In this document: piece after piece, positions 41,980 through 46,839 of the stretch | How the letters are laid out: every line of letters begins with the position of its first letter | Numbering within the stretch: position 1 is the stretch's first letter | Assembly (NCBI RefSeq): GCF_030410395.1 | Contig: NZ_JAUHHF010000006.1 | Span: forward strand, 1 to 64,000 | Reading direction: 5' to 3' | DNA length: 64,000 bases | From: Zwartia panacis | GTDB taxonomy: Bacteria > Pseudomonadota > Gammaproteobacteria > Burkholderiales > Burkholderiaceae_B | Notes under the pieces: generated by a model | Database searches by the model: none | Seen by the model: only the letters and a program-made list of their open reading frames with translations | Told to the model about the DNA's origin: nothing | Translations under genes and position numbers: made by a program

Positions 41980-42056
41980 GGGTCGGTAGCTCAGTTGGTT
42001 AGAGCAGCGGACTTTTAATCCGTTGGTCGCGAGTTCGAGTCTCGCCCGACCCACCA
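41980..42056 (+). tRNA. tRNA-Lys (anticodon TTT)
   Basis: 77-nt cloverleaf: acceptor arms GGGTCGG (41980-41986) and CCGACCC (42046-42052), discriminator A and encoded CCA (42054-42056). D-loop sequence is AGCTCAGTTGGTTAGAGC, the anticodon loop CTTTTAA has anticodon TTT at 42014-42016, and the T arm contains GTTCGAGTC. A terminator follows after 10 nt. The sequence beyond it changes character, and tRNA 3' ends are common integration sites. Confidence 0.98.
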
Positions 42057-42107: not shown

Positions 42108-42419
42108 TTAGGCGCGGATAGTAATTCTCATACCCAAGGCACCAAGAACCTTAGATACAGTGTCAAAACGGGGTTTTGTATTAGGCTTTAGTGCCTTATA
42201 TAAGGCTTCTCTTGTGATGCCGGTTGATTTAGAAATCTCGGCCATACCTTTTGCTCTGGCAATATGTCCTAAAGCAGCCGCTAATTCAGCATCGTCACCA
42301 TCAGCAATGACTTGATTTAAATACTCAGTCATCGCACGCTTACTTTTCAGGTGGCGAGTCATATCAAATTCAGCTAAATCACTGACTTTTATTTTTTTTT
42401 CTGTACTAACAGCTTTCAT
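42108..42419 (-). CDS. Antitoxin of an HI1419/HI1420-type (HigBA-like) toxin-antitoxin module
   Basis: 103 residues with an Xre-like helix-turn-helix: AAALGHIARAKGMAEISKST followed by GITREALYKAL and FDTVSKVLGALGM. This is the 'addiction module antidote' family, which lies downstream of its RelE/ParE-like toxin. The N-terminal 35 residues are the toxin-binding part. The ATG abuts the toxin stop (TAAATG) and GGAGG sits about 8 nt before the start inside the toxin's last codons. Since the toxin is truncated, the antitoxin is now an orphan and may survive as a plain DNA-binding protein or be decaying. Confidence 0.88.
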   Translation of the reverse strand: MKAVSTEKKIKVSDLAEFDMTRHLKSKRAMTEYLNQVIADGDDAELAAALGHIARAKGMAEISKSTGITREALYKALKPNTKPRFDTVSKVLGALGMRITIRA

Positions 42420-42566
42420 TTAATCCTCCAATAACTTGGCTAATTTTTTTGCTGCTTTAATATCGCTGGCCTGACTGGATTTATCTCCACCGCCCAACAT
42501 CACAATAATCGTTTTACCCCTAACTACGTAATAGATACGCCAGCGTGGCCCAAACACTTTATTCAT
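42420..42566 (-). pseudogene. RelE/ParE-type toxin, C-terminal fragment only
   Basis: Reading the minus strand from 42566 gives 48 residues: GPRWRIYYVVRGKTIIVMLG, then GGDKSSQASDIKAAKKLAK and LLED, ending directly before the antitoxin start. This is the C-terminal half of the 'HI1419 upstream' toxin family, whose full length is about 100 residues; the GGDKSxQxxDI motif is diagnostic. Going further upstream in frame, a TAA stop appears two codons before the first Met and the sequence no longer resembles the family. The N-terminal half is therefore lost, and the break lies near 42555-42567. Confidence 0.85.
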
Positions 42567-42833
42567 GAATTATTGTATTCGATCGATTACAAAATATCAA
42601 TGAATCATATGTGCGATATCTAAACAGTTCAGATCCAAAGCGTATATACATCCCACCGCCGAACGTCCTGCACCAGTTGAGACTCTTACTGAGGTCGCAC
42701 ACTTGGACGTATGAGATCAAAAACTTACAAATAACGACATTAAAAGACATAAAGAAATCATTGGATTTGGCGACGATTAATATCGAGTCAATTTCGGCAT
42801 TGCTGATTGTCTTATTCCCAATAGCGAGATCCA
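42567..42833. other. A/T-rich gap with no recognised gene
   Basis: 267 nt between the broken toxin and the apyrase signal peptide. A 91-codon open frame (42611-42886) crosses it, but it has no ribosome site, matches nothing I recognise and runs into the apyrase signal sequence in another frame. The left edge is the likely recombination junction that removed the toxin 5' half. The apyrase promoter should lie here, but I cannot pick it out with confidence. Confidence 0.5.
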
Positions 42834-44444
42834 ATGATGAATACATTTTTCAGCACTTTCCGCAAACAATTATTGTTAGCTGCTAGCTGCGTCCTTGCGA
42901 TCAGTCTCGTGGCATGTGTGAGCGGAGTGGACTCAACGCGTTAGAGTTTGCCTGTCTATGAAGCGATTTTTGATGCCGGTAGTAGTGGAACGAGACTCGT
43001 TGTCTATAAAGTGATTCCTGCTCCTGGCGGATATCCCAAGATCACAGCACTGGGTGCCCAGGAATACGATGACAACGGCATCAATGATTTTTTGAACGGT
43101 CAGGGCACGATTACATTAATTAAAAACGGCAAGAGTGTGCTTCCCGACGGTGCGCGACCCGTCAATTGCACAGGCGGTAAAAAAGAGATCACGAAAACGA
43201 GTGCCGGTCTGGATGTTGTCATCAAAGATCTTGGGCAAACCGATGTCAGCCCATGCGTGCTTGAGCCGCTGCTGCTTTCTCTTGACCCGAGACTTTCAGC
43301 CAATCATTTAAAAAGATCCAATGTCAATATTCAGCTGTTCGCGACAGCCGGAATGAGAACAGAAGACAGCCATAACGGTGGGGCTTGGACGGCTGAACAA
43401 ATCAAGCGCTATTACGATTTGATGAAAACATATGTTGCCAATCTTGGATTCAAGACGGGGGAATTCAAAACGATCAATGGCAATAGCGAGGAAGGGGTTT
43501 GGACCTGGGTCAACTTCAATGATTACTACTTTAATTCCTTTGGCGGCAATCCTACAGTCAGCAAAAATGTCCAAGCCCCAGTGGGAGATTTTGAAGTGGG
43601 TGGCTCATCCATGCAAGTGGCTTTTCCCACCGACAGCAGCCCAAGCGATGCGGATAATGTCTACGCAGTTTCGATTAATGGACATTCCTTTAATGTATTC
43701 AGTAAAACATTTTTGGGTCTTGGTGGTGACGATGCTCGAAAATTTGTCAAAGCGATCAGTTATCCAAATAATGATGGCGCGAAAAGCTGCTACGCAAAAA
43801 CTGCAACACCTTTCAATACGGCGGAGGAGAGTGACATACAACTATATCCCTCCAACCAAGTGTCAGGTATTTCGTCTTTTACGTATCCTTTTAATGGAAA
43901 TCTTGGCAACGCTATCACCCCATGGGCACGGGTTCCAAATGTTTCCACAAAAGGGGTGAATGGATCCTTGTTGCTGAGGGGCGCACCTGAATTTAATTTC
44001 AATGAGTGTTCCAGCGGCTTTACCACGGTCATCGATCAGGTGACATCTTTGGATAGAAATAAGTACGGAACGTTTCAAGATGGTGATCGCGTCACCATGA
44101 ATTCATTCAAAGAAAAATTACGTTCAAGCCGTGCGCCGTTTATTGGGATTGATAATTTCTTTCGAACGGCTAACTATCTGGGTTACAAACCCTCTGAAGG
44201 ATTTAGTCCTGGTCGCTTTATGAGTAAGCTTGAAGAGTATTGTGCTGGCAAAGTCGTAGATGACAGATATATGCAAAATGTCTGCCCAAATGGAGTGTTC
44301 ATGTATACGTATCTGTTTGGACCCGCCGGATTGTTTACAGGCAATACAGCTCAATTTGCAGGCGTCATGGATCCGAAGAACGCGGCAGGTGAAGGTGTGC
44401 TCACCTGGACACGAGGATACTTGCTTATGAAATATTCGAATTAA
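42834..44444 (+). pseudogene. Ecto-apyrase (GDA1/CD39 NTPDase) lipoprotein, interrupted by an in-frame TAG
   Basis: ATG at 42834 opens a lipoprotein signal peptide (QLLLAASCVLAISLVAC, lipobox LVAC with Cys28). Codon 37 is TAG (42942-42944), and the same frame then continues for about 500 codons as a nucleoside tri/diphosphatase. Apyrase regions: ACR1 DAGSSGTR, ACR2 FATAGMRTE, ACR3 GNSEEGVWTWVNF, ACR4 GDFEVGGSSMQVAF, then FLGLGGDDA and a C-terminal EGVLTWTRGYLLM. The family hydrolyses extracellular NTP and NDP to NMP and is mainly eukaryotic, with few bacterial members such as in Legionella. Without suppression the enzyme lacks an export signal; the TTG at 42948 could restart translation but has no ribosome site. 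Codon use looks more A/T-rich than neighbours. Convergent with a nucleoside-hydrolase-fold gene 12 nt away. Confidence 0.82.
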
Positions 44445-44456
44445 CGAATTGGACGA

Positions 44457-45617
44457 TTAATTTGGCTGAACGATATATTTAACCGATTTATTCGTCTCTT
44501 GTGTCCAAAGCTTGCGCAGTCTTTGTATGGTTTGCGCGTGTGAGTTGTTCAATAGCGTTGGCTCGTAATGCTTTCCCCCCAGGGATGGATTCTCGGGGGG
44601 ATAGAAAAGTGAAAAGAGCTCTGGATACAGTAAAAATAATGCCGCTGATTGATCCCAAAAAAGCATTTCTCCGCCCGGACCTTTTTTGACGACTTCTGGC
44701 ACCCAGGTGGACTGAGATAAACAGACCGTATCTTTTACATTAGGCATATTTGCTCCGGCAGGCCAGTTGCAGGGCGTATTGTTGAGAAGTGCCTGCTTTA
44801 ATCTGCCAGGTAATCCATCAGAGATCAAACCCGCAGACTCCCCACCACCTGCCACCATCTCATAGCTAGGGCTGTAACAGTCCGGGTGCAACGGATTGTG
44901 ATGACACAAATCCTCAAAACGAGGAATGTCTACGAAATATGCCTGTAAACCTTCGAGTTTGGTCATGGCTGTTTGGCATGCGGCAAAATCGTAATTGCAG
45001 TTGAAGGATTCTCTGCCTGGTGTAGCTGACTCATCGCCGATAGGTTGCCCCATGATGACGACTCGATCGACTTTATCTCTGATCAAGTCGATGTAATGGA
45101 TAAAGGAAGTGTATGTGCCGATCACTAAGATTGAAACTTTTTTGCATTCTGTAACGGAATCAACGACTTTTTGTACGTAGTTCAGGTCAGTTGACTTCGG
45201 AGCGGGCAGGTTAGGTAGTAGCCCGTTCGATACATTCATCATGGCCCTGAAAAAAGGAATCCAGTTCCACTTGGGATCCAGATCGCGACCATGGATGCCT
45301 TGCTTGCCACCGACAATGATGGGAATTTTTCTTTGGTCGACTTGATCGGGAAGCCGATTGACGAGCTGTTCAATCGCCGCTGCACCCTGTTCCGGGAATG
45401 TGTATCCCTCAGACTGGATAATCGCCACAACGTATTTGTTACCAATAACAAGCGGGATGGCCATCATGTCATCAATGTCGTAATCGTTATCGATTAATAC
45501 GCACGAGGATGGCTGGGCGCTTGCGTTGTTGGCCCCTAGGATGGCAAGTGTCAGAGTGATCAATACTATTGATAAAACTTTAACAGGCCAAATGAGCAGA
45601 TTGAGTTTTATGTACAT
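44457..45617 (-). CDS. Exported nucleoside hydrolase-fold protein
   Basis: 386 residues with a signal peptide (hydrophobic 9-28, likely cleavage after ANNASA). The mature protein has the inosine-uridine nucleoside hydrolase calcium motif as DNDYDIDDMMAIPL, then IIVGGKQGIHGRDLD, VVIMGQPIGDESA, SFNCNYDFAACQTAM (matching the usual FNxxxDPEA region) and FWDQSAALFLLYPELFSL. Where many members have His-Asp in this last motif, it reads Trp-Asp. The family splits nucleosides or related N-glycosides to base and ribose; the exact substrate is open. The protein has several Cys, consistent with the periplasm. It is convergent with the apyrase gene, suggesting a nucleotide-to-base route outside the cytosol. 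Confidence 0.78.
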   Translation of the reverse strand: MYIKLNLLIWPVKVLSIVLITLTLAILGANNASAQPSSCVLIDNDYDIDDMMAIPLVIGNKYVVAIIQSEGYTFPEQGAAAIEQLVNRLPDQVDQRKIPIIVGGKQGIHGRDLDPKWNWIPFFRAMMNVSNGLLPNLPAPKSTDLNYVQKVVDSVTECKKVSILVIGTYTSFIHYIDLIRDKVDRVVIMGQPIGDESATPGRESFNCNYDFAACQTAMTKLEGLQAYFVDIPRFEDLCHHNPLHPDCYSPSYEMVAGGGESAGLISDGLPGRLKQALLNNTPCNWPAGANMPNVKDTVCLSQSTWVPEVVKKGPGGEMLFWDQSAALFLLYPELFSLFYPPENPSLGGKHYEPTLLNNSHAQTIQRLRKLWTQETNKSVKYIVQPN

Positions 45618-45852
45618 GCTGTTTCGCTATAGATTCGTTAATCAAAATTTAATCTATTGCCGAACCCACAAAAACGACTAATTCTTACAATTTGCGTATA
45701 CGCTTCACTTATTTGGTGACTACAAAATATTTTCTTCAAACTTTGTTTACGAGTTTTTAATGCTATTGGTGATTTTTGATTCAATCGCAACCGTTCCTGT
45801 GTTTATGGAGGTCTCATATGAACTCACAATTGTTAAAAAGGAGTGAGACAAC

Positions 45853-46839
45853 ATGTTCGTTCAAACGTTACATAAGCGTATTGCATTATTTTTTCTATCT
45901 GTATGTAGTCTGTCATTGAGCGCTTCCGTGTTTGCACAGACTGATGCTTATCCTCAGCGGTCTGTACGAATTGTCGTACCGGTTTCTGCAGGGGGTAGCA
46001 CCGATAAAATCGCGCGTTTGATCGCGGAAAAACTCAGCACAGCCTGGGGCCAGACGGTTATCGTTGAAAACGTGACAGGTGCGGGTGGTGCGATTGGTGC
46101 AGCGCAGGTGGCCAGAGCCAAGCCGGATGGTTACACACTTGTGTTGCACAGCGATGCGATTGTCCTCAATACAATCCTCATCAAAAACCCACCTTACACG
46201 TTGAATGATTTAACGGGTGTGATGCGGTTGGTCGTGAACCCTCAGGTTCTGGTATCGAATCCAAACTTTGAAGCCAAGACTTTTAAAGAGTACATCGAGT
46301 ACGCCAAGAAGCATCCTGGTAAGCTCTCTATGGGCTTGCCGACCAGTGGAGGCATTGCACATATTGCTCATGAAGTGCTGGCCAAGGCAGCTGATATCAA
46401 GGTCAACTATATCCCTTACAAGGGCGGAGCGCCTGCGGCACTGGATGCGATGGCCGGACATATCGATGCCACGGTGATCACTCTCGCTGCGGTTACAGAA
46501 CAAATCAAAGCAGGCAAGCTTCGAGCGTTGGCAGTCACGACGGATTATCGTTCGCCCGTATTTCCTGATGTGCCGACGATGGCTGAGTCAGGTTATCCTG
46601 CCGTTAATATTGAAAGCTGGCAAGGCATGCTTGCGCCGAAAGGTACGCCTAGTGCCATCTTGGAAAAAATAAACAAAGACGTTGTTGCGATCGTGCGTGA
46701 TCCCGCGAACGTCAAGCAAATCGAAGCTCTGGGATTTAGCGTGTCGACCAATTCAGTCTCTGCATTCAATACGATGTTGCAGGATGTTCGTAAAAAATAC
46801 GCTGAAATTATCGCGCAAGCTGGCATAGTTCAACAGTAA
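45853..46839 (+). CDS. Bug family (TctC-like) periplasmic solute-binding protein 1
   Basis: 328 residues with a signal peptide ending near ASVFAQ and the Bug fold: YPQRSVRIVVPVSAGGSTDK, VIVENVTGAGGAIGAAQVAR and DGYTL are the family landmarks, followed by PYKGGAPAALDAMAGHID and a C-terminal LGFSVST region. Bug proteins bind carboxylates, amides or other small organic solutes. AAGGAG precedes the ATG. No TctA/TctB membrane genes are nearby. It is 33 nt upstream of the PuuE-like gene and probably co-transcribed, so its ligand may be related to ureides. Confidence 0.93.
   Translation: MFVQTLHKRIALFFLSVCSLSLSASVFAQTDAYPQRSVRIVVPVSAGGSTDKIARLIAEKLSTAWGQTVIVENVTGAGGAIGAAQVARAKPDGYTLVLHSDAIVLNTILIKNPPYTLNDLTGVMRLVVNPQVLVSNPNFEAKTFKEYIEYAKKHPGKLSMGLPTSGGIAHIAHEVLAKAADIKVNYIPYKGGAPAALDAMAGHIDATVITLAAVTEQIKAGKLRALAVTTDYRSPVFPDVPTMAESGYPAVNIESWQGMLAPKGTPSAILEKINKDVVAIVRDPANVKQIEALGFSVSTNSVSAFNTMLQDVRKKYAEIIAQAGIVQQ

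Follow-up and report, generated by a model that had tools for sequence, protein, structure and literature searches.

Can a gene still supply an exported enzyme when a single amber codon separates its signal peptide from its catalytic core? The question is raised by an apyrase gene of Zwartia panacis, found in the 64-kb stretch of DNA that was analyzed as a whole (the window). The initial annotation offered three readings without choosing between them: a fresh pseudogene, a sequencing or assembly error, and programmed or suppressed readthrough. A young pseudogene is the best supported of these. The gene, part of an acquired cassette for scavenging nucleotides, is probably a pseudogene that a nonsense mutation created very recently, with export of the enzyme lost.

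Z. panacis, the former "Achromobacter panacis", is a member of the GKS98 group (Alcaligenaceae) whose original isolation was from the rhizosphere of ginseng; the genome of the type strain KCTC 42751 comprises 3,341,787 bp in 54 contigs with an N50 of 303,737 (PMC10535154). The host is a soil relative of freshwater bacteria. The features of the locus are as follows.

41980-42056, + strand: tRNA-Lys(TTT), which bounds the foreign block on the left; its position after the amidase gene is conserved in relatives
42108-42569, - strand: toxin-antitoxin remnant, a whole antitoxin (PF21716) and a 49-codon C-terminal piece of the Gp49-like partner
42834-42941, + strand: lipoprotein signal peptide (MMNTFFSTFRKQLLLAASCVLAISLVAC, lipobox LVAC) with the first part of the linker, together 36 codons
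42942-42944, + strand: in-frame TAG in the linker from the lipid cysteine to the enzyme
42945-44444, + strand: GDA1/CD39 apyrase (NTPDase) core, open frame with conserved motifs intact, ending in TAA (Pfam, phmmer, AlphaFold2, VIA-align, leave-one-out conservation)
42948-42950, + strand: TTG, the sole usable start codon that would leave catalytic motif 1 in the product; it lacks a ribosome-binding site
44457-45617, - strand: exported nucleoside hydrolase (IU_nuc_hydro, Pfam PF01156), intact and convergent with the apyrase gene
45727-45828, + strand: marC stub, approximately the first 33 codons (68% identity over 34 amino acids to the intact MarC of G029)

The interrupted reading frame and its enzyme

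Translation of 42834-44444 gives MMNTFFSTFRKQLLLAASCVLAISLVAC followed by VSGVDSTR, a stop and then SLPVYEAIFDAGSSGTR. The ATG at 42834 begins the lipoprotein signal, codon 37 is TAG, and the same frame then runs open for 498 codons to the next in-frame stop, TAA at 44442-44444. The signal-peptide start has a weak Shine-Dalgarno-like duplex (-3.5 kcal/mol), and the ATG at 42837 is an alternative plausible start. Retranslation thereby bore out the signal, the amber codon and the stop-free frame beyond it as the initial annotation had described them, and relatives of the same layout confirmed the signal independently. The lipoprotein-signal pattern occurs only twice in the six frames of the window, at 42834 and as a weak antisense match, so an in-frame signal just ahead of an apyrase is not a matter of chance.

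Downstream of the TAG, the frame matches the Pfam family GDA1_CD39 (PF01150) with 67.4 bits (E 1.3e-18; curated cut-off 24.9) and carries the motifs DAGSSGTR, TAGMR, GNSEEG(V)WTW and EVGGSSMQ, which are common to the relatives. It is the single GDA1/CD39 gene in the Z. panacis genome. The best PDB matches by phmmer include NTPDase1 of Legionella pneumophila (Lpg1905; PDB 3aap/3aaq). The AlphaFold2 model of the core is confident (pLDDT 86, pTM 0.89) and aligns with 3aaq by VIA-align over 336 residues (Z 29.9, rmsd 2.8). By profile, motifs and predicted fold, the core is a complete GDA1/CD39 apyrase, for which divalent-metal-dependent hydrolysis of NTPs and NDPs is predicted. The similarity to the Legionella enzyme covers the fold of the whole core and the apyrase motifs, at approximately 22% identity. 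It does not extend to the organism, which is Z. panacis, or to the mode of export, as the Legionella apyrases are secreted and required for full virulence (PMC7542358) whereas the window enzyme falls in a group of lipoproteins and its frame is broken by a stop.

Layout of the gene in relatives

An alignment scan of genome contigs yielded 57 loci, while a scan with a single-protein query found none. Homologs are present in 4 of the 32 genomes of the GTDB genus and in 7 of the 268 genomes of the family, in keeping with the rarity in bacteria claimed for such enzymes. Eight relatives are of the lipoprotein type (L061, L064, L067, L068, L070, L072, L073 and L088, the last ended by its contig edge and judged at the gene start only), and all eight carry signal, lipid cysteine, linker and DAGSSGTR in one uninterrupted frame. 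The distance from the lipid cysteine to DAGSSGTR is 20-22 residues in these relatives versus 19 in the window. A bacterial lipoprotein has its signal and mature protein in one uninterrupted frame, as the eight relatives do; in the window the TAG intervenes. When the position of codon 37 was examined across the relatives compared, none had a stop in the linker. The window gene shows one mark of a pseudogene, a disabling mutation relative to intact orthologs.

The view of a split gene would be undermined by orthologs that lack a signal and start near 42948. Signal-less homologs do exist in Zwartia vadi and Sheuella amnicola, but they form a distant branch in the tree and are not true orthologs, so the split view stands, with the relatives encoding the signal and the start of the enzyme in one frame. 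Apyrase homologs of about 400 residues without a recognizable signal peptide were found at L003:1300-2496 (Z. vadi), L004:946-2193 (S. amnicola), L077 and L080. They keep two cysteines conserved with the exported forms and are possibly cytosolic NTPDases, judging from their sequences.

The closest cores (60-64% identity) are those of Legionellaceae metagenome apyrases (L057-L060, L062, L063, L065, L066), which form the sister group of the window core with support of 100/99. They also contain no stop, but their non-lipoprotein signal is followed by an additional domain of some 100 residues rather than by a short linker. This conserved, cysteine-bearing domain (FSIVPKAGTSLPT...CVTCCAGTNFPLNV) also stands ahead of the core in L069. 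The betaproteobacterial lipoprotein apyrases, from Polynucleobacter parvulilacunae (L072), from Neisseriales and Burkholderiales MAGs (L061, L064, L067, L070) and from G026/L073 (the G026 sequence recurs in another record as L106), share lipobox, short linker and core with the window at 46-58% identity. Unlike the window gene, they are uninterrupted, and several have a nucleoside hydrolase nearby.

An acquired block with a nucleoside hydrolase

From the tRNA-Lys gene to about position 46,000 the G+C content falls from approximately 0.55 on the left to approximately 0.39-0.48. In the same interval G029 has kup, marC and a metallo-hydrolase (MBL) gene before the TctC-type gene that also follows in the window, and G005 has the metallo-hydrolase gene alone before it. 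The window instead contains the antitoxin with its truncated partner, the apyrase, the exported nucleoside hydrolase and the marC stub, a remnant of the genes that stand here in relatives. Composition and gene order indicate that this low-G+C block, including the apyrase gene, is horizontally acquired and replaced the kup/marC/MBL genes behind tRNA-Lys. The block holds two truncated genes, and among the 44 large ORFs of the window no other obvious split genes lie outside it. The 3' end of the tRNA-Lys is not repeated in the window, so there is no classical pair of attachment sites. The plasmids, phages and viral contigs searched contained no relatives, and hence no transfer vehicle was identified.

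Among the 32 congeners, apyrase and nucleoside hydrolase occur together only in G000 and G026, for which the chance would be 0.002 if the two were independent, with kinship ignored and the two distant signal-less homologs left out. The hydrolase adjoins or lies near the apyrase in L002/L073, L067 and L072, and it is broken in L070. The pair (42948-45617 in the window; L002, L067, L072, L073, L070) thus recurs in betaproteobacteria with changing orientation. As the genome of Z. panacis also encodes a 5'-nucleotidase-type protein, a route from NTP through NMP and nucleoside to base, by way of apyrase, 5'-nucleotidase-type protein and nucleoside hydrolase, is conceivable. We found nothing on point in the literature on bacterial cassettes of apyrase and nucleoside hydrolase. 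The locus therefore points to a little-described two-gene cassette, a lipoprotein apyrase with an exported nucleoside hydrolase, that would be moving among freshwater betaproteobacteria and whose apyrase is closest to the enzyme of uncultured Legionellaceae.

Fate and age of the amber codon

TAG is an ordinary stop in the Z. panacis genome. RF1 is intact, TAG ends 7 of the 44 large ORFs in the window, and ARAGORN found no CUA anticodon among 39 tRNA genes, one fewer than the 40 published. A search for tRNA-Sec returned none, the sole RF01852 match over the cut-off being a serine tRNA, and the RNA just 3' of the TAG has no unusual fold (z -0.4). With a stop that is not conserved among relatives and neither a suppressor tRNA among the 39 found nor a missing RF1, these marks of recoding are absent, and the readthrough that the initial annotation listed as one option finds no support.

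Long freedom from selection would have cost the core invariant residues, yet it shows barely any decay. In a leave-one-out comparison, from which L078 was set aside for its broken frame, 3 of 80 residues that are invariant elsewhere differ in the window, against 0-6 in the 16 uninterrupted relatives. Invariant sites are thus not enriched for changes in this one strain, as would fit a gene too young for decay or one still selected. A random substitution in the core would create a stop in about 3.9% of cases. The lack of a further one limits unconstrained change to at most about 76 substitutions, or about 5% per site, at 95%. In the tree, the window's own branch has a length of 0.48 changes per aligned position of the protein, so either the stop appeared towards the end of this branch or selection still acts on the gene. 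We infer that it arose recently.

In the explanation we favor, a cassette for extracellular nucleotides would have been acquired, in which the lipoprotein apyrase turns NTP and NDP into NMP and the exported nucleoside hydrolase splits nucleosides into base and ribose. Codon 37, in the linker directly behind the signal peptide, would then have mutated recently to a nonsense codon that ends translation, leaving the cell with a 36-residue lipopeptide, essentially no exported enzyme and presumably no apyrase function, while the enzyme part of the gene has not yet decayed. The related cassette of a Burkholderiales MAG, in which a nucleoside hydrolase with stops and frameshifts (L070:1707-2063) lies beside an intact apyrase, likewise has a broken member and favors a pseudogene in a cassette. 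Against a pseudogene, the near-perfect frame downstream would also be expected under continued selection through leaky expression. Leaky or programmed reading of the UAG, kept by selection for a little exported lipoprotein enzyme, would fit the open frame with its intact conserved residues and a stop placed in a linker that varies and would probably tolerate an additional residue. In-frame stops in bacterial genes often go with dN/dS below 1, and a wide tolerance of them has been argued (PMC7918605). Given an intact RF1, no CUA anticodon among the 39 tRNAs, no tRNA-Sec, no notable RNA structure and no such stop in any relative, we regard this reading as unlikely. It is also improbable that translation restarts at the TTG at 42948, three bases past the stop, to give a cytosolic apyrase. 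This codon keeps the whole first catalytic motif and the distant homologs of Z. vadi and S. amnicola start without a signal, but TTG is a rare start codon, its Shine-Dalgarno duplex is unfavorable (+0.7 kcal/mol), the orthologs of the clade are exported, and hydrolysis of ATP in the cytosol would probably burden the cell.

One wrong base would suffice to hide an intact gene. Such an error is unlikely, because a cultured KCTC stock was sequenced by Illumina NovaSeq (2x150) and assembled with SPAdes (PMC10535154); moreover, the site has no homopolymer, and outside the foreign block the 44 large ORFs of the window include no other obvious split gene. An origin of the stop in the laboratory or culture collection would agree with the minimal decay and with the use of a collection stock, and nothing specific counts against it, yet we give it very little weight. 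An amber codon that acts as a translational valve, with low natural UAG readthrough or a restart at the TTG dividing a selected enzyme between a trace of exported lipoprotein and either nothing or a cytosolic form, seems to us improbable. Should the product be made after all, a stop codon would here control the export of a protein, which is rare. A young pseudogene is most likely, ahead of a new kind of gene control, and as such the gene would illustrate cleanly how a very recent mutation abolishes export in an accessory gene gained by acquisition. In a Rhodocyclaceae MAG (L078:3977-5515), an apyrase frame seems to be interrupted, as the open frame and the stretch homologous to apyrase do not coincide; the family may thus include another broken gene besides that of the window.
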